Below, piece by piece: positions 24,477 through 42,500 of a DNA stretch of 49,674 bases. Numbering within the stretch: position 1 is the stretch's first letter; the number at the start of each line of letters is the position of its first letter. This stretch comes from an uncultured Coriobacteriaceae bacterium (lineage in GTDB: Bacteria > Actinomycetota > Coriobacteriia > Coriobacteriales > Atopobiaceae): positions 1 through 49,674 of the forward strand of contig CADBJR010000008.1 of NCBI GenBank assembly GCA_902795065.1. The letters run 5' to 3'. The translations under genes and the position numbers were made by a program. A model generated the notes under the pieces. The model ran no database searches and was not told the DNA's origin. It worked only from the letters and a program-made list of their open reading frames with translations.

Positions 24477-24477
24477 G

Positions 24478-25267: not shown

Positions 25268-25277
25268 GGAGATTGAA

Positions 25278-25562: not shown

Positions 25563-25564
25563 AG

Positions 25565-25819: not shown

Positions 25820-25831
25820 GACGGTCGCAGG

Positions 25832-26083: not shown

Positions 26084-26220
26084 TGCGGGATTTGGCAAGA
26101 ACCGACCGCTATCCGAGCGGTTCCCCACAGGGGATGCGCTGTTCTGCTCACATCCTGCTTCGTAAGGAGAAGGGCGCATCTAGCTGGGAGAATCGTGATA
26201 TGCAGTACATGGGAACGTAG
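26083..26220 (+). CDS. Possible 45-residue small protein
   Basis: The ATG at 26083 overlaps the stop of the preceding regulator as TGATG, a form that allows coupled translation, and the frame ends at 26220. The product is basic and polar with no motif. Nothing but size and coupling supports it. Confidence 0.3.
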   Translation: MRDLARTDRYPSGSPQGMRCSAHILLRKEKGASSWENRDMQYMGT

Positions 26221-26228
26221 CTACCAGA

Positions 26229-26283
26229 CCCTGCCTCGGAGGCCTTCCACACTCCCCGCAGGGATAGAGATCCGTATGAGAGA
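26229..26283 (+). other. Copy A of a three-copy conserved hairpin element
   Basis: This copy has CTTCCAC (26244-26250), a small hairpin TCCC-CGCA-GGGA (26253-26264) and the tail TCCGTATGAGAGA (26271-26283), ending 11 bases before the next gene. The same order of parts occurs at 30877-30924 and 39397-39452. An alternative larger pairing, CCCTGC (26229-26234) with GCAGGG (26258-26263), also exists here. Confidence 0.5.
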
Positions 26284-26294
26284 AGGGGCGAGAC

Positions 26295-26834
26295 ATGCCG
26301 TTCGATGCCGGCGATGACGCTGGGAAGGAAAGCACGCAGTTCATGTCGATGATGACCCGGGAGTTCGTCCGCCATTCAGTGTTCCCGGCAATCGGAAATC
26401 GGCTTCGTTCCCAAGATCCGCAACAAGAGGATACGGCTGCCCATGCAGCGCAATCGGCGAACCCGGGGCCCGGATACGACCTCATGGTCATGACGTACGG
26501 CTTCGACAGCGAGGCGAGACGCGACGCCTTCGTCTCGCGCCTTGAGGAGAAGGGTATCCTCGTACAGCCGAACAGGAACCAATCCAACGGGCAGTATGTC
26601 GCGACGGTCGCGTTCGACCCCTTGGCTGGCGAGGTCTCCATCGTCAACTCTGCGCTCGCATCCGTCCAGCGCGATGCGGTGGCAGTCGATGAGCTGATTA
26701 TCGAGGGACGCGATGCCGACTACGACCTCTCGGTCGACGACGAGCTCGAGGACGCCTCATCCGTCCTCGCACAGGAGGAGGCAGATGCCGGCATCGGGGA
26801 GATCGTCGCAGATATCGCGGAGCAGGTGAGATAG
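26295..26834 (+). CDS. Hypothetical acidic protein of the element
   Basis: A 179-residue protein not recognised as any family. It has no membrane segment or signal peptide. The middle (about residues 58-110) looks folded, with the pattern YDLMVMTYGFDSEARRDAFV and a later beta-rich part. The last 50 residues are strongly acidic. It starts just after copy A of the repeated hairpin element and its stop abuts the ATG of the next gene, so it probably belongs to the replication or maintenance part of the element. Confidence 0.65.
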   Translation: MPFDAGDDAGKESTQFMSMMTREFVRHSVFPAIGNRLRSQDPQQEDTAAHAAQSANPGPGYDLMVMTYGFDSEARRDAFVSRLEEKGILVQPNRNQSNGQYVATVAFDPLAGEVSIVNSALASVQRDAVAVDELIIEGRDADYDLSVDDELEDASSVLAQEEADAGIGEIVADIAEQVR

Positions 26835-27305
26835 ATGAGGAGCATCTTTATCGAAGAGGCCCGCAGGCAGAATCTCGCGCTCGGTCTCAACCCCGACGGC
26901 ACTTGCCTTGGCGACATAGCGAAGCCGTTCGCATGGTGCAGGACGATCACGACGTCCTCTGGAAGGTCCGACCCGTTCTGCCAGGACGTCCTTGCCGTAC
27001 TCGTCAGAATGGCGAGCGCCCGCCTCGTCGACGGCAGCCCGTTCGGGGGATGGTACGGGGAGACCTGCTGCGATGAGGAGGGCTTCTTCCGCATCTCCTA
27101 CACCAGGCTGGCAGATAAGTTCAACACCTACGCGAAGAGGGTGAAGAGGGCGGTCGTGAAGCTCGAGCAGCTCGGCGTCATCGAGCGCCGCGTCCGCATC
27201 GACGACATCCCCTCAGATAGCGGCACCGTGAGGGGTCAGAACTCCCTCTACATCAGGATCGTCCCCGAAGGGCTCGCTGCCCTCTCGGAAGACGGAGGGC
27301 ATTAA
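26835..27305 (+). CDS. Winged-helix protein, probable replication or maintenance factor
   Basis: A 156-residue protein with a winged-helix-like segment near residues 88-123 (ISYTRLADKFNTYAKRVKRA, then VVKLEQLGVIERRVRI). The same pattern, SYxxLAxxFNxxxxRVKxA followed by LExLGVxxR, occurs in the larger protein encoded at 27319, so the two probably arose from a common ancestor. Its ATG follows the previous stop directly. DNA binding is likely; whether it starts replication or regulates it is unknown. Confidence 0.65.
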   Translation: MRSIFIEEARRQNLALGLNPDGTCLGDIAKPFAWCRTITTSSGRSDPFCQDVLAVLVRMASARLVDGSPFGGWYGETCCDEEGFFRISYTRLADKFNTYAKRVKRAVVKLEQLGVIERRVRIDDIPSDSGTVRGQNSLYIRIVPEGLAALSEDGGH

Positions 27306-27318
27306 GGGCGAAGCGACG

Positions 27319-28590
27319 ATGGGAAAGGTCAACTTCACACCGAACGAGCGCGTCAACCAGATGGCCGGGTTCTCCTGGCCTGCCGGCGACGTCATCCCCC
27401 ATTACTGGCGCCAGACCATCGTCGACCCGTCCAAGGCACGCAACGGGAAGACGGGAAAGCCCGAGTGGCTCGCCATGCTGATCCTCTCCCACATCGTCTA
27501 CAAGTACATGCCCTACGAGGAGGCCCGCTACGTCGGAGACGAGCACATCATCGACTACAGGATGAAGTTCGACCGCAGGCACGAGTTCTACCAGACGAGC
27601 TACAGGGAGCTCGCGGCCCTTTTCAACGAGACGAAGGACCGCGTCAAGGCCGCCCTGGCGGTGCTCGAGGAGCTGGGCGTCGTCAAGAGGATCCTCACCA
27701 CCGAGTCCTACCACGGCCAGACCCTCAACAACTGCCTGAACATCGACATAGACATCGACAGGCTCAAGCAGCTCACATTCCCCGTCCCTGCAGAGGGGAG
27801 CGCAGCGGGGGTGGGGTCGGAAAGTGACCCCACCTATGGGGAAAAACGCACACAGGTGGGGCCAGTTTCTGGTCCCCCCTATGGGGAAATTCCCGCACCC
27901 CTCCCCCCGGATTTGCCCCCACGTACACTAAGAAAGACCTATGAGAATAAGAACCCTAACCCAGAGGAGGCGGGTGATCCGCTGCCGCTGGGTGCGGATG
28001 GGTTCGGGTCAGGGTCCATCGAAGACGAAAAACCTCCGACCATCATCCCCGTCATGGAAGGCCTCGAGGACTCCGAGGAGTTCAAGGCCGCGTGGGATGC
28101 GGTCCCAGCATCGAAGCGCACGGCCCGCTCGAAGAGGGCTGCGCTCGGGGCGTGGGCGGACGCAGTCCAGGAGAGGGGCATCGACGGCTCCCTCATCTCC
28201 GAGGGCTACACGAGCTATTCCGACATCCGCAGGGAGGAGGGGTGCGAGGAGCGCTACATCGCCGCGCTCTCCACCTGGATCTCGCCATCCCAGCCCATGG
28301 AGGGGCTCACGCTGGAATCCCTCGTCGAGGCCCGCAGGAGGGCAGACGAGGTGCACCGCGCCGAGGAGGAGGCCCGCGCATCGGCCACAGCCGAGGATGC
28401 GGCAGAAGAGCGCGAGGAGCGCTTCGTCAGGAAGCTCATCGCAACCGACGAGGAGGCGAGGCGCCTCCATGCCCTCGCATTCCCCGACACGCCCTCGAGA
28501 AGGATCACCGACCGCCTTGAGCATCTCAGGGCATGGTCCGCTTACCTCGCAGAGAAGAGGGACCATGCGTCCTCCGAGGGGGCGGCCTGA
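27319..28590 (+). CDS. Replication-initiator-like winged-helix protein
   Basis: A 423-residue protein. The N-terminal 150 residues hold a winged helix (SYRELAALFNETKDRVKAAL near 94-113, then EELGVVKRI), as in plasmid replication or phage replisome organiser proteins. Residues 155-225 are a proline- and glycine-rich linker. The C-terminal 150 residues are helical and strongly charged. It is followed by the coupling protein with a TGATG overlap, so maintenance and transfer genes share a transcript. Another reading is a regulator of transfer. The exact family was not identified. Confidence 0.6.
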   Translation: MGKVNFTPNERVNQMAGFSWPAGDVIPHYWRQTIVDPSKARNGKTGKPEWLAMLILSHIVYKYMPYEEARYVGDEHIIDYRMKFDRRHEFYQTSYRELAALFNETKDRVKAALAVLEELGVVKRILTTESYHGQTLNNCLNIDIDIDRLKQLTFPVPAEGSAAGVGSESDPTYGEKRTQVGPVSGPPYGEIPAPLPPDLPPRTLRKTYENKNPNPEEAGDPLPLGADGFGSGSIEDEKPPTIIPVMEGLEDSEEFKAAWDAVPASKRTARSKRAALGAWADAVQERGIDGSLISEGYTSYSDIRREEGCEERYIAALSTWISPSQPMEGLTLESLVEARRRADEVHRAEEEARASATAEDAAEEREERFVRKLIATDEEARRLHALAFPDTPSRRITDRLEHLRAWSAYLAEKRDHASSEGAA

Positions 28591-30950
28591 TGAAGAGGGA
28601 GATGGCGGGGGGAATCGCTGCGATCGCCTCTGGCGCGGTGCTCGCCTACCTCGGCAACCGCTGGGGGGCGCTCATCGCCGCATCGCAGGACCCAGCATCG
28701 GAGATGTTCGGGTCAGCCCTGCGGGGAACGATACCGTCCATCATCTCGGACCCACTCACCCTCTCCCCGTCGATCCCAGCGCTCGTCTGCTCGGCGCTCC
28801 TCTTCTGCGCCCCGACGCTCCTCTGGTCGTGGTCCCTCCTCCGGCACACGGACGTCGAGGTCGAGGGAACCCACGGCAAGTCGCGCAAGGGCAGGGTGTC
28901 GGAGGCATCCGCCTACAGGGACCGGGAAAACCCCGACAACAACATCATCCTGACCAAGAACCTCGGCATCGCCCTCCGCCCCGGTCCCGGTGTCGGGAAG
29001 GGCATCAACAACCGCAACGTCCTCATCGTCGGCGGCTCCGGCTCGGGCAAGACGGCGGGCTACGTCGAGCCCAACATCCTGCAGCTCGGGGCAGACCGCG
29101 ACCTCGTCGTCATAGACACCAAGGGGATGGACATCAAGCGCTGCGGGATGGCGCTCGTGAGAGCCGGCATAGAGCCCGTCCAGCTCGACCTCGTGGACCT
29201 CGACAGGTCCGTCAAGTGGAACCCGCTCGCCGCCATCGAGACCCACGCGCAGGTCGACACCTTCGTCGAGTGCCTCATCAGGAACACCAACAACGGGCGC
29301 GAGTCGAACGACCCCATCTGGGACAACGGCGAGCGCCTGCTCTACCAGGCGATACTCTACTTGCTCCTCGACTGGTTCCCGAGGAGCCAGTTCACGCTTA
29401 GGAGCTTCTTCAAGTTCACGAGCTACCTCAGAGTCGAGGATGAGGGCGGGAGGTCCCGCCCCTGCCCCGTCGACCTGATCTTCAGGCAGATCGAGACCGG
29501 CTTCAAGGCCGTCCCCTCGGGCGCCGCCGCCGAGGCGCCGGCGGGCGCCCGCAAGGTCCACGCCGCGCAGGGCCGCAGGAGGACCCCCACCAAGATGAGG
29601 AGGAGGGACGGCGCGGACCCCTCCGCGGCGAGGCTCCGCCGCGGGGCCATGAGGAGGGGGCTTGCCGTCACCGAGGACATGGCCCTCCGGAAATGGCGCC
29701 AGTTCAGGAGCGGAGCGGGAAAGACCCTCCGTTCCTTCGTCATCTCGTCGCACGCCCGCATGACGTCGCTCTGCTCGGACGACGTCCTCGACATGCTCTC
29801 CGGCATCGACGGGGCGGACGAGCTCCACCTCGAGCAGCTCGGCCAGGACCGGGTCGGGGCGGTGGTCGCGGACGACGGGACGGTCGTCTCGAGGGGCGAC
29901 CGCAGGGCCCCGCGCGCCATCTTCGTCCGCACCTCGGACTTCGACGGGAAGCTCAACGCCCTGCTCTCCATCCTCATGTGGCAGGCGATCTTCCTGCCGA
30001 TGTCGGAGGCGGACAGGCAGGGAGGCAGGCTCCCGCGCCCCGTCTCGATCATCATGGACGAGTTCAAGAACATCGGGAGGCTCCCCTCCTTCGACCAGTG
30101 CATCGCCGTCGTCCGCTCCCGCAACATCGACCTCACGGTCATCCTGCAGAACCTCTCCCAGCTCAAGGAGGTCTACGGGCAGGAGACCGCAGACACCATA
30201 CGCGGCAACTGCGCCACGACGGTCTTCCTCGCAGGCGGGCAGGACTACGCCACGGCGCGCCAGCTCGCAGAGGAGAGCGGGAAGCGCACCATCACGGTCC
30301 AGTCGGAGACGGTGCATGCCGGCATCGTCCCCGACGTCTCCTACCAGTACTCGCAGAAGGACCAGGAGGTCTTCGAGGCGTCGGAGCTCGCGCACATGGA
30401 CGCGGGCCACGCCGTCGTCTGGATGGGGTCCGAGTACCCCGTCGAGGACGCGAAGAGCTGGGTCTTCGAGCACAGGAACTACGACCCCGCCTACATGTTC
30501 GACCCCAACGACCCGCCCGAGCGGCACCACGAGTTCGACTTCCCGGACTGGAGGGCCAACGGATCCCCGCTCGGGAGGGACGCGGAGCCGTGGAGGCGCT
30601 CGCTCGAGGCGAGGCAGGACGCCGCCCACGCGCGGATGGCCGTCGTCGAGGCGGAGGACGACGTCCGCGCAGCAGAGGAATCCCTCGCCAGGGCGAGGGG
30701 CCGCGCCACCGAGCGGAAGGCGAATCAGCTGCTCGAGGAGAGGCGGGCGATCCTCCGCCGCCGCCTCGACGAGCGGGACAGGGCCTCCGCCGCCCTCGAG
30801 GCGCTGGAGGAGCAGCAGATTGATTGCGGGAATGAGAAGGGCCGCCCGGGCGACGACATGGTCGCGACGATGCATTGGGCTTCCACCCCCGCCGCATCCC
30901 GGGCAGCCCGATCCGTACGAGAGAAGGCCCGCAGGCGGGCTTCCCCGTGA
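28590..30950 (+). CDS. VirD4/TraG-type coupling protein
   Basis: A 786-residue membrane ATPase that would deliver the relaxase-DNA complex to the secretion channel. Two N-terminal membrane helices (about 8-30 and 61-82) are followed by Walker A GGSGSGKT at 148-155 and Walker B IIMDEFKNIG near 486-495. ILQNLSQLKEVYG near 512 is typical of TraG/VirD4. An unusual arginine- and alanine-rich insertion covers about 310-355. The C-terminal 100 residues form a charged coiled-coil-like tail. The start at 28590 overlaps the previous stop. The final codons lie inside copy B of the repeated hairpin element. Confidence 0.9.
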   Translation: MKREMAGGIAAIASGAVLAYLGNRWGALIAASQDPASEMFGSALRGTIPSIISDPLTLSPSIPALVCSALLFCAPTLLWSWSLLRHTDVEVEGTHGKSRKGRVSEASAYRDRENPDNNIILTKNLGIALRPGPGVGKGINNRNVLIVGGSGSGKTAGYVEPNILQLGADRDLVVIDTKGMDIKRCGMALVRAGIEPVQLDLVDLDRSVKWNPLAAIETHAQVDTFVECLIRNTNNGRESNDPIWDNGERLLYQAILYLLLDWFPRSQFTLRSFFKFTSYLRVEDEGGRSRPCPVDLIFRQIETGFKAVPSGAAAEAPAGARKVHAAQGRRRTPTKMRRRDGADPSAARLRRGAMRRGLAVTEDMALRKWRQFRSGAGKTLRSFVISSHARMTSLCSDDVLDMLSGIDGADELHLEQLGQDRVGAVVADDGTVVSRGDRRAPRAIFVRTSDFDGKLNALLSILMWQAIFLPMSEADRQGGRLPRPVSIIMDEFKNIGRLPSFDQCIAVVRSRNIDLTVILQNLSQLKEVYGQETADTIRGNCATTVFLAGGQDYATARQLAEESGKRTITVQSETVHAGIVPDVSYQYSQKDQEVFEASELAHMDAGHAVVWMGSEYPVEDAKSWVFEHRNYDPAYMFDPNDPPERHHEFDFPDWRANGSPLGRDAEPWRRSLEARQDAAHARMAVVEAEDDVRAAEESLARARGRATERKANQLLEERRAILRRRLDERDRASAALEALEEQQIDCGNEKGRPGDDMVATMHWASTPAASRAARSVREKARRRASP
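30877..30924 (+). other. Copy B of the three-copy conserved hairpin element
   Basis: GGGC (30877-30880) pairs with GCCC (30906-30909). Within are TTCCAC and a hairpin CCCG/CGGG (30888-30891 with 30900-30903) whose loop contains GCA, then the tail TCCGTACGAGAGA (30912-30924). It overlaps the end of the coupling protein gene and is followed by a GC-rich hairpin (30925-30940). Confidence 0.5.
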
Positions 30951-31018
30951 GACGAGGATAGCAGATTTCACCGAGCGGGGACCCTCCCCGCACGGGCAGG
31001 AGAACGAAGGGAGAAACG

Positions 31019-31306
31019 ATGAGGGGAGCCATCGCCAAGGGAATCGGGACCGTCCTCGCAGCGGAGGGCTACGACGCGCAGGGCACGCTTACCTCGATCC
31101 TCAACACCATCTCTCAGGGCGTCTTCTTCATAGGCGCCGCGATCATGGGATGGGGGTTCGTGCAGATCGGCATCGCGGTCTTCAGCGACACCAAGGGCGG
31201 CGGGGCGCAGATCATCTCCGCCTTCCAGGCCATCGTCGCCGGTGCGATCATCATGGTCGCCTCCGCGATCTTCGGCGGGCTTCCGACGCAGTGGGTCTCC
31301 ATGTGA
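31019..31306 (+). CDS. Small two-helix membrane protein, Maff2-like or pilin-like
   Basis: A 95-residue protein with two hydrophobic segments (about 30-52 and 66-88) separated by a short polar loop, FSDTKGGGAQ. Size, topology and place between the coupling protein and PrgI match the Maff2-type proteins of Tn1549-like elements, which take the position of VirB2 pilin genes. The start has AAGGGAG upstream. Whether it is assembled at the surface or is a channel part is unknown. Confidence 0.7.
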   Translation: MRGAIAKGIGTVLAAEGYDAQGTLTSILNTISQGVFFIGAAIMGWGFVQIGIAVFSDTKGGGAQIISAFQAIVAGAIIMVASAIFGGLPTQWVSM

Positions 31307-31316
31307 GGGCTGCGCC

Positions 31317-31739
31317 GTGCTCACCACGAACATACACGCCGACCTCACGAAGTACCGCCCCAAGATCGTCGGGGGCCTCACGGCGCGCACGCTCGCGTGC
31401 ATCGTCCTCGCGCTCGCTACGGCGGTGGCCATCGCCGCGGTCGCATGGCTCGCGTTCGGGGCGGGGGCAGACTCCGTCGGAATCATCGTCTTCGTCGCCG
31501 TCATCCCCTTCTGGTCGATCGGGTTCCTCGAGCCCGATGGGATGAGGTTCGAGCAGTGGCTTCCGCTCTGGATGCGCCACAACTTCGGAGGAGACGAGCT
31601 CGTCTACGAGAACAGGTCGAGGTACGAGGAGGCCGGCTTCGGCGGGCTGACGCATAGGGGAAGGAGGGCGCATGCCGTTTCCAAGGCTTACGGGAGGTAC
31701 CGCGGGAAAAGGGGCTTCGAGCGATGGCCCTCGGTTTGA
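31317..31739 (+). CDS. PrgI-family transfer protein (VirB3-like)
   Basis: A 140-residue inner-membrane protein. The N terminus HADLTKYRPKIVGGLTARTL is the PrgI pattern, and two membrane helices follow (about 26-50 and 52-68). PrgI proteins sit next to VirB4 in Gram-positive conjugation systems and correspond to VirB3. A GTG at 31317 with GAGGG upstream was chosen as start. The last 68 bases overlap the start of the VirB4 gene in another frame, an unusually long overlap. Confidence 0.8.
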   Translation: MLTTNIHADLTKYRPKIVGGLTARTLACIVLALATAVAIAAVAWLAFGAGADSVGIIVFVAVIPFWSIGFLEPDGMRFEQWLPLWMRHNFGGDELVYENRSRYEEAGFGGLTHRGRRAHAVSKAYGRYRGKRGFERWPSV

Positions 31740-34443
31740 CCTGGGAAGGAGGTGCCCCTCCTGCCACGAGCAGGTGGGATCCGGCGACAGGTACTGCCCC
31801 GCATGCGGCTCCGAGCTCCCCGTCGACGTGAGCGACGTCTACGAGGAGGGCCCGGTCGAGGTGTACGACCTCGGCGACGCGGAGCCCCTCCCCCGGGAAG
31901 AGCATGCGCCAGCGGAGCCTCCCGTGGAGGGGACGAAGGGCATCGCCGCCCGCATCAGGGCAGCCCTCGCCCCGCGCAAGGAGGATGACGGCGATGACGA
32001 GGTCTCCTACAAGGAGGCCATGGAGCGGTTCCGCGCACGGGACAAGACCCTCGCCTCGGCTATGGACGAGAAGAGGCGTAACCGGAGGAGGGCCCGCAGC
32101 GTCTACGACGCGATCGGCTTCGACCTCATGTACAGCGACGGGATATGCGAGGTCGAGGAGGGCCTCTTCTCCCAGACGCTCTCCTTCGAGGACGTGAGCT
32201 ACCAGACCGCGCGGGTGGAGTCCCAGTCGGAGATGTTCCGCGAGCTCTGCCGCCTGGTCGACCACTTCGGGCCGAACACGTCGATCCAGTTCACGATAGC
32301 CAACACGCTCCTCTCCGAGGAGGACATCGAGTCGAGGCGCTTCTTCGACCCCGCCGAGTGCGGGGAGAACGCCGATGCCGCCCGCGTGTTCAACTCGATA
32401 CTGTCCGCCAAGATGCGCGAGGGCTCGTCGAACATCAGGAGGGACCGCTACATCACCTTCTCCACGCTCGCACCGAACCTGCAGCGCGCCACCCAGCTCC
32501 TCGCGAGGAGCAGGGGATGGGTCCGCCAGAGCTTCAACGTCCTGAAGTCGAGGACCCACAGGCTCGACGGCGAGGAACGCCTCGCGGTCATCTCCTCGAT
32601 CCTGCGCCCCGGGAAGCTCTTCACGTTCAGCTACGACCGCGACCTCAGCTCCACCTCCCCGCTCACGGCGAAGGACTACGTCTGCCCGGCCTCGCTCAAC
32701 TTCAAGCCGAGCGGGTCGGAGGCCGTCTGCTACCGGAGCGGTGATGTCTGGTGCCAAATCCTCGTCTTCCGACCTGACTTCGCGGCGGAGGTGACCGACC
32801 GCGCCATCGCATCGATCCTCGACCTCCCCATCCCCATGGCAGTCTCCTGGCACCTGCAGCCCATCGACAAGTCCAAGGCGATCGAGATGTCGCGCACGCA
32901 GGCGGGCTGGATCCAGAAGGAGGTCATCGAGGAACAGAGGCGCGCGATCAGGGGCGGATACGATTACGAGCTCCTCTCCCCAGGCCTCGCCGAGGCCAAG
33001 GACGAGAACGCGCGCGTGCTCGACCTCCTCATGCACCTGAGCCAGCGCTCCTACTACTTCAGCGGGCTCGTCTTCACCTACGCGGGCACGAAGGCGAGGC
33101 TCCACGAGCAGGCCCAGCAGATCATCTCCGCCGCGCAGGCGGAGGGCATCGAGCTCGAGGCGTACGCCCTGCGCCAGAGGGAGGGCCTGAACTCGGTGCT
33201 GCCCCTCGGGCACAACCACTGCGACATCTACCGGGACCTCATGACGAGGGAGCTCGGGATCTTCGTGCCGTTCACGACGCTCGAGCTCGACATGGAGGGC
33301 GGCGGCTACTACGGGCAGAACGCGCTCTCCGGGAACCTCGTCATCTGCAACCGCGAGGAGCTCATGAGCCCGCACGGGTTCGTCTGCGGGATGTCCGGCT
33401 CCGGGAAGTCCTTCGCGGTGAAGCGCGAGATTACGAACACCGTGCTCTCGCACCCCAGGTCGCGCATCTTCATCCAGGACAGCACCGGGGAGTACACCTA
33501 CCTCGTGAGGAGCCTCCACGGCATCGAGTACGCCTACGGCCCCGACTCGGACGTCCACTACAACCCGTTCGCGCTCGACGAGGGCGACGACCTCACCTAC
33601 CAGGCCAAGCTCGCCTGGAAGATCGACGCGGTGCTGGCGATGACGTCCGCCCTGAAGTCCGATGCGGACGCATCGCTCACGCAGGAGGAGCGCTCGATCA
33701 TAACCAAGGTCGTCGAATCGATGTACCGCGATTTCGACGGGGCGTTCTCCGAGCCCCTGATGGAGGACTTCGTGGAGCGGCTCGAGGCCTACGAGGGCAC
33801 GGGCGAGGATGAGGCGAGGCGCCTCGCGCTCGTCTTCGGCCGCTACACCTCAGGTACCTTCTCCTTCCTCAACCACCCCTCCACCCCGCAGGACGCCTCC
33901 GCGAACCTCATCTCCTTCAACATCAAGGACGTGCCGGGCGACATGCGCTCGCTCGCGATGATCTCGATGCTCGAGAGCATCCGCCAGGAGATGTACGCGA
34001 ACCACGGGAAGGGGATCTCCACATGGGTCTACATCGACGAGATCCAGTCCCTCACGGGAAGGACGGCGGTCCTCGAGTACCTGGCGAGGCTCTGGAGGGA
34101 GGGCCGCAAGTACGGCCTCATCTGCACGGGCATGACGCAGTCGGGCATGGCGATCGGCGACAACGACCTCACCCGCGACCTGATCGACCAATCGGGGTTC
34201 GTTCTGCTCCTCAGGCAGGGCGACGAGGACAGGGCCTACTGGGCGGAGCGCAAGGGGCTCTCGCAGCGGGAGCTCGAGGCCATTGACGAGAACTGCGAGC
34301 CGGGATGCGGGCTGCTCATCGCCGACGGCGCGCGCGTCCCCTTCCGCGATGACTTCCCCAAGGGCAACGTCCTCTACGACATCTTCAACACCGACCCCAA
34401 GGAGTACGCGCGCAGGATGGCGCGCGAGAAGGGGGCGGGCTGA
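31672..34443 (+). CDS. VirB4-type conjugation ATPase with N-terminal zinc ribbon
   Basis: A 923-residue ATPase that powers the type IV secretion channel. Residues 28-45 form a zinc ribbon (Cys 28, 31, 42 and 45), followed by an acidic linker to about 110. The VirB4 N-terminal region runs from about 140. Walker A GMSGSGKS is near 573-580, Walker B WVYIDEIQSL near 784-793, and TGMTQSG near 820 completes the core. A zinc ribbon is not usual in VirB4. The start lies within prgI but is backed by AAGGAGGG directly upstream. The stop overlaps the next ATG (TGATG). Confidence 0.92.
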   Translation: MPFPRLTGGTAGKGASSDGPRFDLGRRCPSCHEQVGSGDRYCPACGSELPVDVSDVYEEGPVEVYDLGDAEPLPREEHAPAEPPVEGTKGIAARIRAALAPRKEDDGDDEVSYKEAMERFRARDKTLASAMDEKRRNRRRARSVYDAIGFDLMYSDGICEVEEGLFSQTLSFEDVSYQTARVESQSEMFRELCRLVDHFGPNTSIQFTIANTLLSEEDIESRRFFDPAECGENADAARVFNSILSAKMREGSSNIRRDRYITFSTLAPNLQRATQLLARSRGWVRQSFNVLKSRTHRLDGEERLAVISSILRPGKLFTFSYDRDLSSTSPLTAKDYVCPASLNFKPSGSEAVCYRSGDVWCQILVFRPDFAAEVTDRAIASILDLPIPMAVSWHLQPIDKSKAIEMSRTQAGWIQKEVIEEQRRAIRGGYDYELLSPGLAEAKDENARVLDLLMHLSQRSYYFSGLVFTYAGTKARLHEQAQQIISAAQAEGIELEAYALRQREGLNSVLPLGHNHCDIYRDLMTRELGIFVPFTTLELDMEGGGYYGQNALSGNLVICNREELMSPHGFVCGMSGSGKSFAVKREITNTVLSHPRSRIFIQDSTGEYTYLVRSLHGIEYAYGPDSDVHYNPFALDEGDDLTYQAKLAWKIDAVLAMTSALKSDADASLTQEERSIITKVVESMYRDFDGAFSEPLMEDFVERLEAYEGTGEDEARRLALVFGRYTSGTFSFLNHPSTPQDASANLISFNIKDVPGDMRSLAMISMLESIRQEMYANHGKGISTWVYIDEIQSLTGRTAVLEYLARLWREGRKYGLICTGMTQSGMAIGDNDLTRDLIDQSGFVLLLRQGDEDRAYWAERKGLSQRELEAIDENCEPGCGLLIADGARVPFRDDFPKGNVLYDIFNTDPKEYARRMAREKGAG

Positions 34444-36092
34444 TGGCGGAGGCGGCGGTCAAGAAGGCGCGGGAACGCGCCGCCCTGTCGGTCTGGGGCA
34501 TCGGCGACGATGCCGCGGAATGTTACCCCTATAACGGGCATAAGGGACGTTATGCCCGTTATAGGGGTAACATCCCTTATGCCGCCGGAAGGAAGAGGCA
34601 TAGGCAATACATTGCGGATATTTCGGCCGTCAACGCCGTCGGATCGGACGACGGTGACGGAGATGGGACGGAGGAGCCTACCGCCGAGCGCATGGTGCGC
34701 TTCGCGGTAGCGGACGCCTCCGCAGCTGCCCCTACCATCCCGACGACGGTTAAGACCGTCGCGCACCCCCTCAGGAGGCTCCAGGCGAGGGCGAACGCCC
34801 GGGAGTCGAGAAGGCTCCACGAGGAGGGGGCGTCCATCGGATCTGCCGCATCCCGGAGCATCGCAGGCGCCGTATCCGAGGCGACGGGCGCGGTCGCATC
34901 GCTCGTCTCCGCAGCCGCCGTCCAAGCGGCATCGCTCCTCATCCCCATGCTCATCCCAGTCCTGGCCGCGATCGCCATCCTCTCGGCGCTCCCGACCTGC
35001 ACCGCGACGCTCACGCTCCTCCCGCAGGGCACGGGAGGCGCCGCGGTCGCGCGGACGGCGCTCTCCGAATACCGCATCGGCGAGGAATCCGGGAGCTACG
35101 GGCACGGCGAGCCGAAGTACTGGAACCGCGTCTTCGGCGGCGGGTTCGTGAACGGATACCAGACGCCCTGGTGCGCCTGCTTCGTCTCCTGGTGCGCAGA
35201 CGAGGCGGGATCCGTCGGCCAGGGGCTCGTCCCGGTGCTCGGGGGATGCGGGGGCTTCCTCGAGTGGTATGCGTCCCATCCCGATGCGGGCACCGTGTAC
35301 CACGGCTTCGCGGGCTACTTCCCCCAGGTCGGGGACTTCATCATCTACAACTCGACGGGAGGCCCCGGCATCGGCCACGACCATATCGGCATCGTCGCCC
35401 GGGTGCACGACGACGGGAGCTTCGACACCGTCGAGGGCAACACCTACGCACCGCATTCGAGCATGTGCGGCTTGTCCGACAACCACTGCGGCATCCACTA
35501 CCACCAGCGCGTCGGGGACGGGTGGCCCTCGGCCGACAGGACGGGCAACGGCCGCGGGGGCGGCGAGCCGTCCTTCATCCGCCCCGCCTACGCAGCATCC
35601 GGCATTGGAGAGATAGCCATCCCCGAGTACAGCAGCGGCACCTGCCCCGCAGGGCATTCCTTCGAGAACGTGTGCGTGGGGACGTACGCCACGCACGAGT
35701 GGGATCTGGCGGAGAACAGCTTCGCCGCCGGCACCGCGCAGGCGCGCGTCCAGGCGCTCTGGCGGAGCGCGGGATCCGTCACCGACTCCGCCGGGTTCAA
35801 CACGCTCGACGGTTGCTATCTCATCGCCTGCACCTCTGTCTTCGGGGACGTGGGCGACAGGATCACCTTCTACTTCGACGACGGCACGGCCATCGAGTGC
35901 GTGAAGGTCGACGCCAAGGCGGAGTCCGTCGCGTCTCATGACGGGCATCCCGCCACCCGATGGGGGCATGCCCACGATGCGAACGTGCTGGAGTTCTGCG
36001 GGACGGACGCCATCGGGGACGATCCCTACCTAGCGCTCGGCCTCGACGGGCGGCGCGTAGTGTCCGCGACGAACCACGGCTCGATCCTCTAG
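34443..36092 (+). CDS. Membrane-anchored CHAP-domain peptidoglycan hydrolase of the transfer system
   Basis: A 549-residue protein with one strong membrane segment near 158-185 and an outer CHAP-type amidase/peptidase domain. PWCACFVSWCADEAG near 243-257 gives the likely catalytic Cys 244, and GHDHIGIV near 311-318 the likely histidine. Such enzymes open the cell wall for the conjugation channel, the role of VirB1. The C-terminal 150 residues resemble a second small sortase-like or beta-rich fold that is not identified. Codons 27-47 are made by a palindromic insertion (34521-34583). Translation is coupled to virB4 by the TGATG overlap. Confidence 0.82.
   Translation: MAEAAVKKARERAALSVWGIGDDAAECYPYNGHKGRYARYRGNIPYAAGRKRHRQYIADISAVNAVGSDDGDGDGTEEPTAERMVRFAVADASAAAPTIPTTVKTVAHPLRRLQARANARESRRLHEEGASIGSAASRSIAGAVSEATGAVASLVSAAAVQAASLLIPMLIPVLAAIAILSALPTCTATLTLLPQGTGGAAVARTALSEYRIGEESGSYGHGEPKYWNRVFGGGFVNGYQTPWCACFVSWCADEAGSVGQGLVPVLGGCGGFLEWYASHPDAGTVYHGFAGYFPQVGDFIIYNSTGGPGIGHDHIGIVARVHDDGSFDTVEGNTYAPHSSMCGLSDNHCGIHYHQRVGDGWPSADRTGNGRGGGEPSFIRPAYAASGIGEIAIPEYSSGTCPAGHSFENVCVGTYATHEWDLAENSFAAGTAQARVQALWRSAGSVTDSAGFNTLDGCYLIACTSVFGDVGDRITFYFDDGTAIECVKVDAKAESVASHDGHPATRWGHAHDANVLEFCGTDAIGDDPYLALGLDGRRVVSATNHGSIL
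34521..34583. repeat. 52-bp palindrome in frame within the CHAP gene
   Basis: Arms 34521-34543 and 34550-34572 are exact 23-base reverse complements around GGGACG. TCCCTTATGCC (34573-34583) is a further inverse copy of 34537-34547. The whole stretch is 63 bp, keeps the frame, and contributes a Tyr/Gly/Arg-rich segment in the cytosolic N-terminal part of the protein. Confidence 0.8.
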
Positions 36093-36101
36093 GAGGCGGA
36101 A

Positions 36102-36911
36102 ATGCGCGATTATCTGGAAAGGCTCCTCTCCACGTGGCCCGGGCGCATCGCTGCGATCTTCGCCATCGCGCTCGTGCTGTCGCTCCTCGCGTTCTGCGCG
36201 CGGGGCGGTGGCGAGGACGAGGAGGCCTCGACCGGACCCAATGAGGTGCCGGCACCCGCCTCGGCGTCAACACCCGATGCGGCGCTCCCCGACGGGATGG
36301 TCGCCCCATCCGAGCCTGCGCCTGACACCGCCTACTCCCCGGACAACCCGGATCTCTCCACCGAGATCATGGGTTGGCTCGTCGAGCACGGCTTCCCCTA
36401 CACCGCATCGGTCACCGCCGTCTCAGACGAGGTGGTCGATGTCGGGAACGGCGCGACCGCCCGCCTCGTCATCTGGTCGGTCGAGGACGGGGAGGCGTAC
36501 ATCGCAGGACAGCAGCAGGACGGCAGGTGGACCGTCTGGACGCCCGACGGCCCCGATGGAAGCGAGGCGCCGTCGATGAGGTCGTACGACGGCATGCTCT
36601 CCATCTACCAGGCGGACGCGCTCGCCGAGCTCATGCCGCGCGAGCTCGCGGAGAGCCTCGTCGACCCCTGGCTCTCATTCGCTGGATCGCGCAGGGTCTC
36701 GGGCACCTCGGCACGCATCCCCACCTCGTCGGTCTCGGCGGATGGTGATGCCGCCTCGTTCCTGCTCGTCGTCGACGACTTCGACGGGAGCATCCCCGAG
36801 ACGCGCTTCTTCCTCGCAGCATGCAGCCGCTCCAAGAAGGGCTGGAAATGCTCCTTCGAGGAAATCGGCGCGGACGAGGCGCGTGAGTCCATCGGGAAGG
36901 AGGGCATCTGA
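36102..36911 (+). CDS. Single-pass membrane-anchored extracellular protein of the transfer operon
   Basis: A 269-residue protein with one membrane helix at about 13-33 (IAAIFAIALVLSLLAFCA), a low-complexity Pro/Ala/Ser linker to about 80, and an outer domain of about 180 residues. Topology and position between the CHAP enzyme and the VirB6-like protein recall TcpC/VirB8-type scaffold proteins, but no sequence motif proves this. The stop overlaps the next start (TGATG). Confidence 0.65.
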   Translation: MRDYLERLLSTWPGRIAAIFAIALVLSLLAFCARGGGEDEEASTGPNEVPAPASASTPDAALPDGMVAPSEPAPDTAYSPDNPDLSTEIMGWLVEHGFPYTASVTAVSDEVVDVGNGATARLVIWSVEDGEAYIAGQQQDGRWTVWTPDGPDGSEAPSMRSYDGMLSIYQADALAELMPRELAESLVDPWLSFAGSRRVSGTSARIPTSSVSADGDAASFLLVVDDFDGSIPETRFFLAACSRSKKGWKCSFEEIGADEARESIGKEGI

Positions 36912-37870
36912 TGGCGAAGGGAAGGAAGCTGGGGCATGCGGCAGTCGCGGCCGGAGCCACGCTCGCCATCGCCCCGACGGCCGCATATGCCGCGACGCTC
37001 CAGGAGCAGGCGGAGGCGTTCCTCGCCAAGTTCCTCATCGACGCTGCGAACGCCCAGTTCGCGGGCATCGCGGAGCACACCTCGCAGATCGCCCATGCAT
37101 CAGGCCTCATGGACCCCCTGAGGGACGCGCTGGGCGACGGGGGCGCCTTCTACACCCAGGTGACGGCCGCATCCTACGTGGTCGTCCGCCCGATCGCCCT
37201 CTCCATCCTCTGCCTCGTCGTGCTCGTGCAGCTCCTCGAGATATCGCGCAAGTACGACGCCAACGCCCAGCTCCCCGTCGTCAAGGAGGTGCTCACCCTT
37301 GCAGTGTACTTCGCCATCTGCGTCTGGCTCATCAACATCAGCACCCGCCTCTGCGAGGCGATCTTCGACATCTCCGCGGGGATCATCAACGCATTCAGCT
37401 CCCAGCTGAACGCGGGGGGCATCGAGGAGATGGTGACCCCCGAGCTCACCTATAGCAGCGTGAGCGTCGGAGAGGTCATCGGCATCGCGCTCGCCGCCCT
37501 CATCACGGGCCTGCTCTCCACGGTCGCGGGGGCAGTCACCCAGCTCGTGGTCATGGCGCGCGTGCTCCAGGTCTACGCTATGGTCTTCCTCTCACCCATC
37601 CCCCTCTCGCTCATGGGCATGGAGCAGACGAGGCAGTTCGCCGTCGGGTTCCTCAGGAGCTTCGCCTCTCTCGCGCTCGCGGGCGTCATGATGTTCTTCA
37701 TCATCGCCGCCTATCCGACGATCCTGAACATCCTCATCGTCGCCTCCAACCATCTCGCGGAGGAGGGCGGGCTCTACATGAACTGGATCACCTCCTCCCT
37801 GATCATGAATGTCCTCTACATCTGGGCCCTCACCAGGTCGGGTGCCTGGGCGCAGTCCCTGTTCGGATAG
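36911..37870 (+). CDS. VirB6/TrbL-like polytopic membrane protein
   Basis: A 319-residue protein starting with a signal-like segment (residues 8-27, AAYAA), then a polar helix region and at least five membrane helices between about 85 and 305. The size, number of helices and place in the operon fit VirB6/TrbL, which lines the inner-membrane channel of type IV secretion systems. VFLSPIPLSLMG near 226 is a pattern seen in such proteins of Gram-positive elements. Coupled to the previous gene by an overlapping stop and start. Confidence 0.75.
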   Translation: MAKGRKLGHAAVAAGATLAIAPTAAYAATLQEQAEAFLAKFLIDAANAQFAGIAEHTSQIAHASGLMDPLRDALGDGGAFYTQVTAASYVVVRPIALSILCLVVLVQLLEISRKYDANAQLPVVKEVLTLAVYFAICVWLINISTRLCEAIFDISAGIINAFSSQLNAGGIEEMVTPELTYSSVSVGEVIGIALAALITGLLSTVAGAVTQLVVMARVLQVYAMVFLSPIPLSLMGMEQTRQFAVGFLRSFASLALAGVMMFFIIAAYPTILNILIVASNHLAEEGGLYMNWITSSLIMNVLYIWALTRSGAWAQSLFG

Positions 37871-37883
37871 GAGGGCTGCGACG

Positions 37884-38495
37884 ATGGATGCGAGATACGT
37901 CGGGAGGTGCCCCCGCTGCGGGGGGCGCGTGCTGGATGCGGGCAGGCTCTACGCCTGCGAGAACGCCATGGCCAGGGAGAAGAAGGGGCAGGCCGCCTGC
38001 AACTGGAGGCTCTGGAAGGTCTTCCGGCGGTGCGCCATCACCGAAGGGGCGCTGGGTCGCCTCCTCGCGGGCGATGAGGTCGTCATCGAGTGCGCCACGG
38101 AATCAGGCGACGCCTACAGGCTGACCGTGTTCCTCGACCCCGACCGCAATTTCGCGCTCTACCCCGTCAGAAGGGTCGTCGGCGAGTGCCCCGCATGCGG
38201 CGGAAGGCTCCTCGAGAGCGACCGCGCGGTCCGTTGCGAGAACAACCGGACCCATCAGGTCGGCGGGAGATGGGTGAACGACGGGACTTGCTCCTTCCGC
38301 GTCCAGAAGGACATCAACGGAGTCCGCCTGTCGACAGCCGAGATCGCAAGGCTCGCGTCGGGCGAGGAGGTCTTCCTCCGCGGGCTCGCGGGGAAGGGCG
38401 GGAGGAAGCTGGACGCTTGGATGAGGCTCGACAGGAGGGACGGTTTCAAGCCTGCCTTCCGCCTCGACGGAAAGGGGGATCACAGTGGAGACTGA
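37884..38495 (+). CDS. Protein with two tandem topoisomerase-type zinc ribbons
   Basis: A 203-residue protein made of two similar halves. Each begins with CPxCGGRxL (residues 9 and about 110), then CEN, then a further Cys before a W/F-R segment, and ends with a LL/LA-x-GxEV stretch. This is the layout of the C-terminal DNA-binding zinc domains of type IA topoisomerases, but no topoisomerase catalytic part is present. It may bind DNA during transfer. ATG at 37884 follows GGAGGG. The frame overlaps the start of the next gene by 11 bases. Confidence 0.7.
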   Translation: MDARYVGRCPRCGGRVLDAGRLYACENAMAREKKGQAACNWRLWKVFRRCAITEGALGRLLAGDEVVIECATESGDAYRLTVFLDPDRNFALYPVRRVVGECPACGGRLLESDRAVRCENNRTHQVGGRWVNDGTCSFRVQKDINGVRLSTAEIARLASGEEVFLRGLAGKGGRKLDAWMRLDRRDGFKPAFRLDGKGDHSGD

Positions 38496-39336
38496 GAGGG
38501 ACGGAGGGATGGAAGCCCGCGGGAACCGGACCAGACGGGTGATAGCGGCCTTCGGGATCGCGGTCGCCATCGCGGCGATCCTAGCCACCCGATCGTGTGT
38601 CCCCGCATCCACCACGGAGGCGACGCCCCATGCTGCCCCGCAGCAGACCGAGGCAGTCGAGACGGACAGACGCGGCGCGGAACGGGAGCATACGCCCCAG
38701 AGGGAGGGTCCCGCCTCCGACGGAACGGACATGCGCACCGGAAGCACGCCAGGCACCCAGCAGGACACGATCTCCAGAACGCGCCGACGCGAAACCGCCG
38801 CCGGTCAGGATGCGACAGCGCCTTCCGATGGAGGCAGCATGGCGGAGCCTCCCGCTCCATCTGCATCGGACAGCGGCTCCGGGAGCCAGAGCGGCAGCTC
38901 GGTCGATGCGCCGGCGCCGATGCCCGAGAAGAGGGCCTGCCAGGCATGCGGCGGGACGGGCTCGGTCAAAACAGGGTCGAGGACCGTCACCGACAGCGCC
39001 GCCTGGGACGAATGGGTCGTCGACAGCCCCGCATGGGACGAGTGGGTCGTCGACAGCCCGGCATGGGACGAGACGGTCTACCTCGGCATCCAGCTCTCAG
39101 ACGGCACCTTCTTCGCCGCCGGGGACGAGGCATCTGCGGACGCCTACGAGGAATCGGTCGTCCTCGCGGGGGGATCAATCTCGAGCAGCAACGTCTACGG
39201 CTCGGTCCACCACGACGAGGTCGGGCACACCGTGCACCACGACGAGACCGGCCATGCGGTCCACCACGACGCCATCACCCATACCGAGGACGCCTACGGG
39301 ACCTGCCCCGCCTGTGGCGGGAGCGGGACCGTGTAG
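38485..39336 (+). CDS. Membrane-anchored repeat protein with split DnaJ-like cysteine motifs
   Basis: A 283-residue protein. One membrane helix (about 19-37) precedes a long low-complexity region rich in Thr, Ser, Pro and Ala. From about 152 comes CQACGGTGSV, and the last residues are CPACGGSGTV. Both are CxxCxGxG motifs as in DnaJ zinc centres, here about 120 residues apart. Between them are three copies of an AWDEWVVDSP-like repeat and then a histidine-rich repeat (VHHDEVGH and variants). The two cysteine pairs could close one metal site and the histidines could bind further metal. The GTG at 38485 has GGGGG eight bases upstream. Function unknown; similar DE/His repeat proteins occur in Gram-positive conjugative elements. 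Confidence 0.65.
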   Translation: METERDGGMEARGNRTRRVIAAFGIAVAIAAILATRSCVPASTTEATPHAAPQQTEAVETDRRGAEREHTPQREGPASDGTDMRTGSTPGTQQDTISRTRRRETAAGQDATAPSDGGSMAEPPAPSASDSGSGSQSGSSVDAPAPMPEKRACQACGGTGSVKTGSRTVTDSAAWDEWVVDSPAWDEWVVDSPAWDETVYLGIQLSDGTFFAAGDEASADAYEESVVLAGGSISSSNVYGSVHHDEVGHTVHHDETGHAVHHDAITHTEDAYGTCPACGGSGTV

Positions 39337-39396
39337 GCAAACCCGAGAGGAGGACGCACTTGGCCACCTGAGCATCCAGCACCCATCCGAGTGAAC

Positions 39397-39452
39397 ACGG
39401 AGCCGTGCTTCCACGCCCCAGCAAGGGCCGCGGCTCCGTTCCGTACGAGAGA
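39397..39452 (+). other. Copy C of the three-copy conserved hairpin element
   Basis: ACGGAGCCG (39397-39405) pairs exactly with CGGCTCCGT (39431-39439). Inside are CTTCCAC (39408-39414) and a hairpin GCCC-CAGCAA-GGGC (39415-39428). The tail TCCGTACGAGAGA (39440-39452) follows directly. It lies in the 243-base gap before the surface protein gene. Confidence 0.55.
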
Positions 39453-39474
39453 GCACGCAGAACTGAGGCACCCC

Positions 39475-39579
39475 ATGAAACGCAAGCAGCATGACTGCAG
39501 CAACCAACCAACGCCTCCCTTCTCCATGCTCCGAATGCGGCACGGCAAGAGCATTCAGCCAGAAGAAAGGAGTCGATGA
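39475..39579 (+). CDS. Possible 34-residue small protein before the adhesin gene
   Basis: An ATG at 39475 opens a short basic frame whose stop (39577-39579) directly touches the ATG of the adhesin gene. There is no motif and no strong ribosome-binding site. It could be a leader frame coupled to the large gene or chance. Confidence 0.25.
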   Translation: MKRKQHDCSNQPTPPFSMLRMRHGKSIQPEERSR

Positions 39580-42500
39580 ATGCAGAAGCACAAGAAGAGA
39601 CAGAGAACGGTCCGCCTCATCAGTTGGGGCATGGGCACGGGAAGGAGGATCGAGACGGCGATCGTCACGCTCGTCCTCGTCCTCAACCAATGCCTCTGGC
39701 CCCTCGGACCCTCGAAGATGGCCCTCGCTGAGGAGGCCGATGGCGGAGATTCCGCCATTATCATCGAGGCGGCGCCCGATGAGGCCCCCGAAGCCGTCGT
39801 CGAGGAGGAGCCTTCGGTCCCCGACGCCCCCGACGTTGCTGCGGAGCCAATCACCGAGCAGGAAGGATCCGAGCTGCCCGATGACGAGCCCGGCCTTCCC
39901 GACGCGAACGCCCCTCCGACTGGGCAGACCGAGGAGCCATCGCTCCCGAAAGCACCATCCACCATCGATGTCACCTACAAGGTCGTCAGAGGAGCGGACG
40001 AGGAAGCCTTCACCGATCCCGCGGCGGTCGAGGCGGGAGCGACCTCCAACCGCGTCCGGCTCGATACCGACCTCGGATTCGAAGACGGGACAGAGGTCGA
40101 GCTCCGCATCTCGATCCTCCTCGACGGGAACGACATCACGGACAGGGCGGAGGTCGCCCCCGACGGGAGCTGGATCGAAATGCCAGCGGAGATCGACCTC
40201 TCCAAGGTCGAGATCGAGGTGACGGCCACCGCAGCCATGCCCGAGGAGGTCTCCCCCGAAGCAGCCGAGCCCATCGAGGCTGAGGAAGCGCCTTCTGCAG
40301 CCGAGGAGGACCAGATGATCTCCGAGCAGCCAGCGGAGGATACCGGGGATGGCATGGACCAGCCCGCACCGAACGAGCCGGATCAGGAAGCGTCCGAGCA
40401 GCCGGACGATCTCCTTCCGGACGATGGCGATGGGGAGGATTCCGGGGAGGCAGATGCCGAGGAGCTCGACGGCGAGGCCATCGCCGCCCAGATGGCGGAG
40501 TTCGAGGCCTTCTTCGAGGAGGCCGGCCTCGGCGAGGACGAGCAGCAGGCCTTCATGATGCAGGTCGGCATCCCGCTCCTCGCGGCAGCAGGGTCCACGG
40601 GAACCATCACGAGCATGAGGTCCACGGGCCTCGGCGACGGCATCACCGCAGGCTACACCTGGACGCTCGACGGCAGGCAGGCGTACTGCATGTCCGGGTA
40701 CTTCGCAGACCCCGTCGTAGGACAGACGCTCACCCGCTACAGCGGGAACCTCGGCATCAAGGAGCTCGACTATGTCCTCTACCACGGCTACGACGGTGTG
40801 ACCGTCACGAGCGTGGGAGGGCTCAACGCGATGAGGTCAATCGCAGCCACCCAGGCGGCGGTCTGGTACGTCGTCGGGGACAAGCGTCCCGACATCCTCA
40901 ACACCCACGGATACAGCCATAACGAGAACTACTACAACCGTCTCTACGGCCTCGACGTCATCGACGGAAGGCAGGACATCTTCCGCGCGGCCAAGGCGCT
41001 CGTCGACGCCGCGACCGCATACGCGAACTCTGGCGGAGGCGGCCCCGAGGCGGGCTTCGCGCAGGTCTACCTCAACGACGGCTCCGTCCACGACAGCGCA
41101 GGCTACCTCATCCAGCACATGGCGGCGGTCGGCGAGAAGACGGGCACCCTCCGGCTCGTCAAGGTATCCGCGAGCCCGTCTCTGACGACCAACCTCGCAT
41201 GCTACGACCTCGCAGGCGCGGAGTACGGCGTCTACACGGACTCCAGCTGCTCCGCGAGCTCGCTCGCAGCCACAATCAGGACCGATACGAACGGAGAGGG
41301 ATCCGCGACGCTTCCCGCAGGCACCTACTACGTCAAGGAGACCAAGGCGAGCTCGGGCTTCCTGCTCGACACCGAGGTCCACACCGTCACGGTGCCTACG
41401 GGCGGGACGGGCACCGTGACGTCGACCGAACAGCCAGGCAACGACCCCATGAACGCGCGCGTCGTGAAGCGCGACAAGGACACCGGCGAGGCGAGCCCCC
41501 AGGGAGGAGGCACCCTCGCGGGGGCGGAGTTCACGCTCCGCTACTACGACAACACCGACGGCGATACCGCCGGTGCACCCACCCGTTCATGGGTGTTCGC
41601 GACAAATGCAAACGGCGTGGTCCTGTTCAGGTCCGCGACGCCGATCTCCGGCGATGAGTTCTTCATCGGGGCGGGCGGGACGCGCATCTTCCCCGTGGGA
41701 ACCTACACCATCCAGGAGACCAAGGCGCCCGAGGGATACATACTGCCCTCGGGAGGGTCAGAAGTCCACACGCAGGTCGTCAGAGTCGCAGGCGACGGCC
41801 AGACCGTCACCGAGATGAACGACATCATCGTCGACGAGCAGGTAAAGCGCGGAGACGTCCGCTGGGTGAAGACCGACGACTCCGGCAGGCCGATGGCCAA
41901 CGTCGAGTTCGAAATCACCTCGCAGACCACCGGCGAGAAGGTCACCGTCAGGACCGATGCGGACGGCGTCTTCGACTCGAGCCGCGCATCCGACAAGCGG
42001 CAGGCTTGGATGCCCCATTCGAGCACGCCCGACTCCTCGCTCGGAGCCTTCCCCTACGACACCTACTCGGTGAGGGAGCTGCGGAGCGATGCGAACCGAT
42101 CAGCGAGCACCCTCCTGAGCTTCACCTTCACCATCGACGACTCAACGGCTGGCAAGACAACCGACCTCGGGACCGTCGAAAACAGGATCGTCACCATCGG
42201 CACCACCCTCACCGAGGACGGAGGCACGCACTACGTTCCCGCCATCGGAACCGTGACCCTCACCGACACCATCTCCTACACCAACCTCGAGGTGGGCGCG
42301 ACCTACTGGTTCGAAGGCGAGCTCTACGACAAGGAGAGCGGCGAGAGCCTCAGCATCACCGCGAAGGGAACCGAATTCATCCCAACCAAGACGAATGGAA
42401 CCGCATCGATGACCTACGAGGTCGATGCGGAGGAGCTTGCTGGGAAGACCGTCGTCTGCTTCGAGACCCTGCACTGCAAGGACGACGACGGCTTCACCGT

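Follow-up and report, generated by a model that had tools for sequence, protein, structure and literature searches.

Small hairpins bound by a protein that controls translation are familiar from the RNA phage coat operator and from the leaders of ribosomal protein genes. Signals shared between mobile elements are also known as DNA sites, with AcaCD/SetCD sites described as common to IncC plasmids, SXT-type integrative and conjugative elements (ICEs), and SGI1-type mobilizable islands (PMC4605294). We focused on a contig of 49,674 nucleotides from an uncultured Coriobacteriaceae bacterium (GenBank CADBJR010000008.1, assembly GCA_902795065.1; contig C8 of genome G000 in our set), referred to here as the window, which contains an ICE at positions 24432 to 44373. 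This ICE holds three copies, A, B, and C, of a two-block motif in which CTTCCAC is followed, after 20 to 25 nt, by TCCGTAYGAGAGA. An earlier inspection of the letters (the original prediction) had taken these copies for a hairpin element used by a single mobile element. We propose, with a probability of roughly one half, that they belong to a lineage-specific, cis-acting 5'-leader RNA that acts as the shared operator of a mobile-element regulon.

Thirteen sense-strand copies in mobile elements

The pattern CTTCCACN{8,35}TCCGTAYGAGAGA matched the window three times, always on the plus strand (26244-26283, 30880-30924, and 39408-39452), and never in 100 shuffles, in agreement with the three copies first described. 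Since the pattern was drawn up from these same copies, the lack of shuffle matches is expected, and copies found elsewhere are the better control. Within G000 this strict pattern finds the window's three copies only; a looser one, CTTCCACN{8,38}CCGTAYGAGAG, retrieved four more (D and E on contig C3, F on C36, and G on C39). These sit in what look like three integrative mobilizable elements (IMEs) that encode a tyrosine integrase, ParA (C3) or a DnaB-type ATPase (C36 and C39), a NikA-like MobC, and a MobA/VirD2-type relaxase, as called by Pfam for the C3 and C36 proteins and from open reading frames (ORFs) plus similarity for C39. Two sister species add six copies: A2 and B2, the orthologues of A and B, and the mobC copy H in G080, and B3 and C2, the orthologues of B and C, plus copy I, ahead of a small ORF before parA, in G081. 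Copy A2 was missed by the patterns because one base is inserted in its tail. The total is 13 copies, seven in G000 (three in the ICE, four in IMEs) and six in the sister species, and three of the five genomes of the genus carry the element. That the chromosomal parts are free of copies is true of the window, but the same genome has the four additional copies in its IMEs. The element is thus not confined to one mobile element, being present also in three IMEs of G000 and in elements of the two sister species.

All 13 copies lie on the sense strand of the following gene, and they lie close to its start, as would suit a cis-regulatory 5'-leader RNA: the final GAGAG ends 8 to 23 nt before a start codon in 10 copies and 92 to 96 nt before it in the other 3. 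For copy A this distance is 12 nt, to the ATG at 26295, and for A2 it is 11 nt when counted to the orthologous start (an earlier, out-of-frame ATG follows at 6). Copy D ends 8 nt before parA, and E, F, and G end 8 to 9 nt before mobC. Behind copies C and I, the start codon belongs to a tiny ORF (34 and 26 codons, respectively) beside the real gene; the stop of the 26-codon ORF overlaps the parA start, and the small ORF behind copy C has a counterpart in G081 at 94% over 34 amino acids.

A hairpin with a constant flank on one side, in one orientation, is typical of sites recognized in single-stranded DNA. Given this layout and their place in mobile elements, the copies could instead be a DNA element that is read single-stranded, either as a priming site or as a secondary relaxase or recombinase site in transfer or replication. 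We consider this unlikely, since priming has no need of 10 of 13 copies ending 8 to 23 nt from a start codon, and since the oriT-like hairpin near mobC does not coincide with the element. This hairpin (GCGGGGGA..CCCCGC..CCCT), which we take to be oriT from its resemblance to such sites, is like our element found in the intergenic region upstream of mobC, yet it is distinct from it, lying 31 to 41 nt before CTTCCAC in G and H. It is strongly kept, in the form GCGGGGGA..CCCCGC then CCCCT, at 15 of 17 mobC loci of the family without the element (L090-L108). It also precedes the element in the IMEs, as a pattern match in G and H and by eye in E and F, and it was not seen in the 80 to 150 nt inspected ahead of D and I, the two copies next to parA. 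A nick site would be expected once per element, beside the mob genes and tied to a relaxase family; our element has three copies in one ICE and two in one IME, and is absent from all 17 other mobC loci examined. The mobC locus on contig C17 of G000 is among the places without it, and no element was found within 120 nt upstream of the parA of G080's IME.

Some mobC loci have longer inverted repeats before the oriT-like hairpin. Copy F (L022 11332-11370, on C36 of G000) resembles a natural deletion that joins the oriT-like hairpin straight to CTTCCAC, with the 5' arm gone.

Constant loop and tail on changing stems

The block CTTCCAC is identical in all 13 copies, and the tail YYGTAYGAGAG is intact in 12, with A2 as the exception. 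The two blocks stand 11 to 26 nt apart, and such variable spacing disfavors both a double-strand DNA site of fixed geometry and a sigma-factor site. A protein-coding reading of the copies was dropped, as the differences between gap lengths are not multiples of three. Over nine to eleven nt, GUACGAGAG(GA), the tail has the same sequence as the sarcin-ricin loop of 23S rRNA. As judged by eye, most copies lack the complementary flank that the rRNA stem requires, so that the likeness is one of letters only.

Starting from a model built from three IME copies, we aligned eight copies under guidance of the structure (D, E, G, H, I, B, C, and C2), leaving aside A and B2 (poor fit), B3 (repeats B), F (no 5' arm), and A2 (found later). 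All 47 cells of this alignment are paired, and four of the six base pairs are altered on both sides, against a shuffle mean of 1.1. For paired cells, double changes, and covariation score, the observed values were reached by none of 500 shuffles, and the number of pair types was reached by 11. Because the alignment was fitted to the structure, each copy was also tested singly. A loop-adjacent stem as long as the real one arose in 0 to 2.4% of shuffled pieces for seven copies and in 7% for I; it was equalled in 19% of shuffles for F and 51% for B2. For A and A2, which have their stems at other places, all shuffles (100%) equalled it. CUUCCAC is predicted to be unpaired at 0.80 to 1.00 in all 12 copies folded, compared with averages of 0.52 to 0.81 in shuffled flanks, and the share of 200 shuffles reaching the same level was 0.000 to 0.06 in 10 copies, with B at 0.285 and F at 0.42. 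In the minimum free energy (MFE) folds without the tail, CUUCCAC forms part of a hairpin loop in nine copies and a 7-nt bulge in two (C and C2); in F, all but its first base falls outside any stem.

These folds change the structural model. The small hairpin with GCA in its loop, described originally as common to the three copies, is absent from the IME copies and is not used by the MFE fold of A; what is constant is CUUCCAC and the tail. Copy A, thought to have no clear outer stem, has CCCTGC/GCAGGG plus GGAG/CTCC. A2 pairs at the same positions with altered bases (CCTGCC/GGCGGG and GGGG/CCCC), so that the loop GCCUUCCACA stands on GGAG/CUCC in A and GGGG/CCCC in A2, within CCCUGC/GCAGGG and CCUGCC/GGCGGG, respectively. 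The enclosing stems of B and C fared differently. That of C is solid (-26.5 kcal/mol), but for B the stem described (fold 1 in Table 1) can form beside a rival, fold 2, which is the MFE structure without the tail and puts CTTCCAC in an 8-nt apical loop. The hairpin directly after copy B reads GCTCGC AG GCGAGC in the G080 alignment, altered on both arms, and no such hairpin follows the other copies, as judged by comparing the copy sequences. Taken together, a conserved structure with compensatory change is found across the copies, with F and B2 as exceptions and with an enclosure of the loop that in most copies is no better than in shuffles. The observation behind the original prediction is real and more general than noted: a structured, repeated element serving mobile-element genes is borne out by 13 sense-strand copies, stem changes on both sides in 8 of 13, and a loop predicted to be unpaired in 12 of 13. 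Its interpretation was right in kind and wrong in scope and structural detail.

The same data bear on two alternatives. A 5'-end mRNA stabilizer or processing site (an RNase target) without a dedicated regulator would agree with a stem shortly before the start codon, and the constant tail could then be the cleavage site. Such a role has no need, however, of a 7-nt loop and a tail that stay constant over differing stems, and restriction to mobile elements of one genus would be unexpected, which makes it improbable. The copies could also be functionless remnants of one small repeat spread by recombination, as they are seen only in mobile elements and F resembles a deletion product. Against this, the stems are altered on both sides, and A and A2 keep loop and pairing, though the A2 tail has an inserted base. 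Copy B, moreover, keeps 55 of 56 motif bases in B2 while its neighbors diverge (bases kept: 25 of 33 on the immediate 5' side, 35 of 42 on the immediate 3' side, and 12 of 33 beyond that); B lies inside the 3' end of the virD4 ORF, and in G080 virD4 stops just before B2. We regard a remnant origin as very improbable.

Distribution and genetic neighborhood

Outside the genus, no convincing copy emerged. The pattern CTTCCACN{8,30}YGTAYGAGAG occurs in 6 of 140 family genomes, where the three outside the genus have single matches inside ORFs; a backward control pattern gave 10 matches in these 140 genomes, more than the three extra-genus matches. Among 396 genomes of the class, the looser pattern matched in two (G000 and G408), against six control matches. 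The G408 match and one on a viral contig (L008) were discarded, as the expected context was not shown, and the viral contigs and plasmids searched held no further element. Tail-like GTACGAGAGR occurs at 28 sites in the three positive genomes, of which 11 are copies; the other 17 had no CTTCCAC in the 60 nt inspected, and 16 of them lie where a frame is open over 201 nt. A covariance model (R2) was run on the 140 family genomes with at most 40 candidates per genome scored; because of this limit and because it missed the known copies A, F, I, and A2, what it does not find is weak evidence. Its nine weak matches outside the genus, judged by eye, had no CTTCCAC in the stretch inspected, and four of them recur at one place within one genus. 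A match of another model (R1) in the rpsP leader of G079, with CTTCCAC in the stem, was set aside as coincidence, as this stem lacks CTTCCAC in the remaining four genomes of the genus.

A relative of the ICE's VirB4 is present in 32 family genomes, 3 of which carry the element. In the VirB4 surroundings taken from 10 of the other 29 (VirB4 42-57% identical; 5.8 to 39 kb each), among them G078 and G079 of the same genus, no copy was found. A MobC search of genome contigs returned one locus, apparently on G080's contig. Repeated 11-mers in nine related ICE regions (up to 14 per region) were uninformative, as the same test did not reveal the motif in its own ICE. A search of the literature, in the opening parts of abstracts, brought up nothing recognized as such an element. 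Comparison with Rfam had been suggested, with the Collinsella-1 motif in mind; no Rfam 15 family matches the copies. Its 4,227 models gave only a tRNA in the window at the gathering score, and none of 13 matches up to an E value of 5 in 24000-45000 overlaps A, B, or C.

ICE copies and IME copies occur together in each of the three positive genomes, and the two negative genomes of the genus have neither; with five genomes of one genus, this co-occurrence is only suggestive. From its distribution, the element is restricted to one lineage and either young or fast-changing, and it was seen only in mobile elements.

Two further observations belong here. A stem like GCGGTGC...GCACCGC is kept in the rpsP leaders of all five genus genomes (L057-L061). 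At one G080 locus (L206, contig C159), GTACGAGAGG is followed at once by a strong GC hairpin, with CTTCCGGAC before it, which could be a diverged copy or chance.

Table 1. Positions in the window of the element copies, their stems, and the surrounding genes
Feature	Positions	Strand	Details
Copy A	26229-26283	+	CTTCCAC 26244-26250; tail TCCGTATGAGAGA 26271-26283
Copy A stems			Outer CCCTGC 26229-26234 / GCAGGG 26258-26263; inner GGAG 26238-26241 / CTCC 26252-26255
Copy B	30869-30924	+	CTTCCAC 30880-30886; tail TCCGTACGAGAGA 30912-30924
Copy B, fold 1 (stem first described)			ATTGGGC 30874-30880 / GCCCGAT 30906-30912
Copy B, fold 2			GATGC 30869-30873 / GCATC 30894-30898; TGGG 30876-30879 / CCCG 30888-30891
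Copy C	39397-39452	+	11-bp stem ACGGAGCCGTG 39397-39407 / CGCGGCTCCGT 39429-39439
Copy C, inside the stem			CTTCCAC 39408-39414 as 7-nt bulge; inner hairpin GCCC 39415-39418 / GGGC 39425-39428; tail 39440-39452
Hairpin directly after copy B	30927-30940	+	GCCCGC AG GCGGGC
Genes after copy A	26295-28590	+	Protein without family match 26295-26834; replication-initiation-like 26835-27305 and 27319-28590
virD4-like coupling protein	28533-30950	+	CD1115 family (Pfam, NCBIfam); ORF runs through copy B
Transfer genes after copy B	31019-38495	+	PrgI, VirB4 (CD1110 family), CHAP hydrolase, TrbL_2, others (Pfam, NCBIfam)
34-aa small ORF	39475-39579	+	Starts 23 nt after copy C GAGAG; stop abuts adhesin start codon
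Large surface adhesin after copy C	39580-44373	+	Thioester, SpaA, and TQ domains (Pfam)

The genes behind the ICE copies are listed in Table 1. The two replication-initiation-like ORFs matched PHROGs families for replication initiation. The protein ahead of them (26295-26834) had no match in the family scans, PHROGs included, and its structure model, with a predicted local distance difference test (pLDDT) score of 44.8, was not used. The small protein at 31019-31306, without a family match, is presumably trbC-like, as named from its position. Family scans of the ICE proteins returned helix-turn-helix (HTH), excisionase-like, and Rep-like families among others, and no integrase or relaxase among the ORFs scanned in 24432-44373. 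The ICE in the window may be incomplete, or it may depend on relaxases of other elements. On the G080 contig, an integrase-like ORF lies ahead of the same genes.

Several repeats in the window stand apart from the element. At the start of the CHAP ORF (34517-34576; L026 4896-4947), there is a near-perfect inverted repeat of 23 to 27 bp with a 6-nt spacer, altered in a compensating way on both arms in the G081 orthologue as judged by eye; an operator and a transfer site are possible roles. At 44440-46680, the 3' end of the adhesin gene and a terminator-like hairpin are repeated downstream of a hydrolase/TetR pair, as if the pair had been inserted with duplication. Outside the ICE, very long near-perfect inverted repeats with arms of 51 and 39 bp lie at 1909-2013 and 23233-23315, respectively.

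A candidate operator shared by ICE and IMEs

The reading that we favor, a shared leader RNA, would work as follows. The RNA would be the active form, in which a locus-specific stem presents the constant CUUCCAC, while the constant tail YYGUAYGAGAG reaches up to or into a Shine-Dalgarno region, either that of the next gene or that of a tiny coupled ORF. A putative trans-acting reader, either a protein or a small RNA, would bind loop and tail and thereby govern how ribosomes gain access, or what becomes of the leader, at several operons together, probably at the level of translation. In the ICE, the operons under control would be those for replication-like proteins, type IV secretion, and the adhesin, and in the IMEs, parA and the mobC-relaxase genes. 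The genes behind the copies are those that an element needs jointly for transfer and maintenance. More tentatively, and with rather less likelihood than the leader RNA itself, the IMEs, which differ in backbone, may use the ICE's operator before parA and mobC of their own; production of the partition and relaxosome proteins would then coincide with that of the transfer machine of the ICE.

A number of results weigh against a shared leader RNA. B, B2, and B3 lie 95, 92, and 96 nt from the next start, so that the original description of the copies as preceding genes of the element holds for the strand but sits poorly with B, inside the 3' end of virD4. Further copies with pairing stems had been named as the test of the element: the orthologous ICE copies and the IME copies do pair, but the related ICEs of ten other genomes have none, F has no stem, and the single base change in B2 disrupts fold 1 of B, the stem described, while leaving fold 2. 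In most copies the number of pairs enclosing the loop does not exceed that in shuffles (0.05 to 0.755 of shuffles reach it), a clearly low free energy is limited to A, A2, C, C2, and D, and among whole-leader folds only C (z, -2.8) and D (z, -2.0) are out of the ordinary. Once the tail is added, pairing between the loop region and the Shine-Dalgarno region is preferred in G and I (loop unpaired at 0.50 and 0.45), and the tail itself is predicted to be unpaired at 0.29 to 0.72, so that a single-stranded tail is unsupported by prediction. A sigma-70 type scan found no promoter around the five copies scanned (A, D, E, H, and I), and no reader was found, the structure model of the one candidate (26295-26834) being unusable. 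Given these ordinary folding energies, the case for a leader RNA rests on the constant loop and tail, the covariation, and the position, and not on stability.

Hairpins early in long operons also recall processive antitermination, in which a recruitment site would be read by LoaP, a NusG paralogue, or a similar protein; LoaP is described as binding such an RNA hairpin (PMC12691694). Like our element, the LoaP-dfn hairpin is reported from 5' leaders of long operons, with more than one such locus per genome, but it is of the UNCG tetraloop type (PMC12691694), which was not seen in the copies, compared with a CUUCCAC loop and a constant tail here. LoaP scored above the cut-off only in G078 and G079, both without the element; G000 had only a match below it (90 bits), and G080 and G081 (68% complete) had none. 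Because the hairpin type differs and loaP above the cut-off is found only in the two element-free genomes of the genus, we rate this as the least probable of the alternatives. Like the phage coat operators and ribosomal protein leaders, the leader RNA that we propose would be a small stem-loop, constant in its loop, that lies directly ahead of the ribosome binding site or covers it; it differs in having seven sites in one genome and a cognate protein that is only postulated.

The element is unlike anything we found, yet ordinary in kind unless shared control at the RNA level is proven. If our reading is true, it would represent a compact RNA operator family without an Rfam 15 match, and the natural variants (A, B, C, the IME forms, and the deletion-like F) would make a ready series of mutants for identifying the reader. 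An ICE and mobilizable elements would then be wired together at the RNA level and not via a DNA-binding activator. In the AcaCD/SetCD system described in PMC4605294, one signal stands ahead of the transfer genes of a self-transmissible element and of the genes of a dependent island; here, too, the same site occurs in the ICE and in IMEs, the would-be helper and islands, in all three positive genomes. The AcaCD/SetCD signals are described there as DNA sites bound by activators of the FlhDC family, whereas ours would be a leader RNA beside the start codon. The closest precedent for the shared logic is SGI1, which reads the AcaCD signal of the IncC plasmid via a DNA site (PMC4605294); use of the ICE operator by IMEs, if true, would be a posttranscriptional counterpart of this hijacking of a helper.

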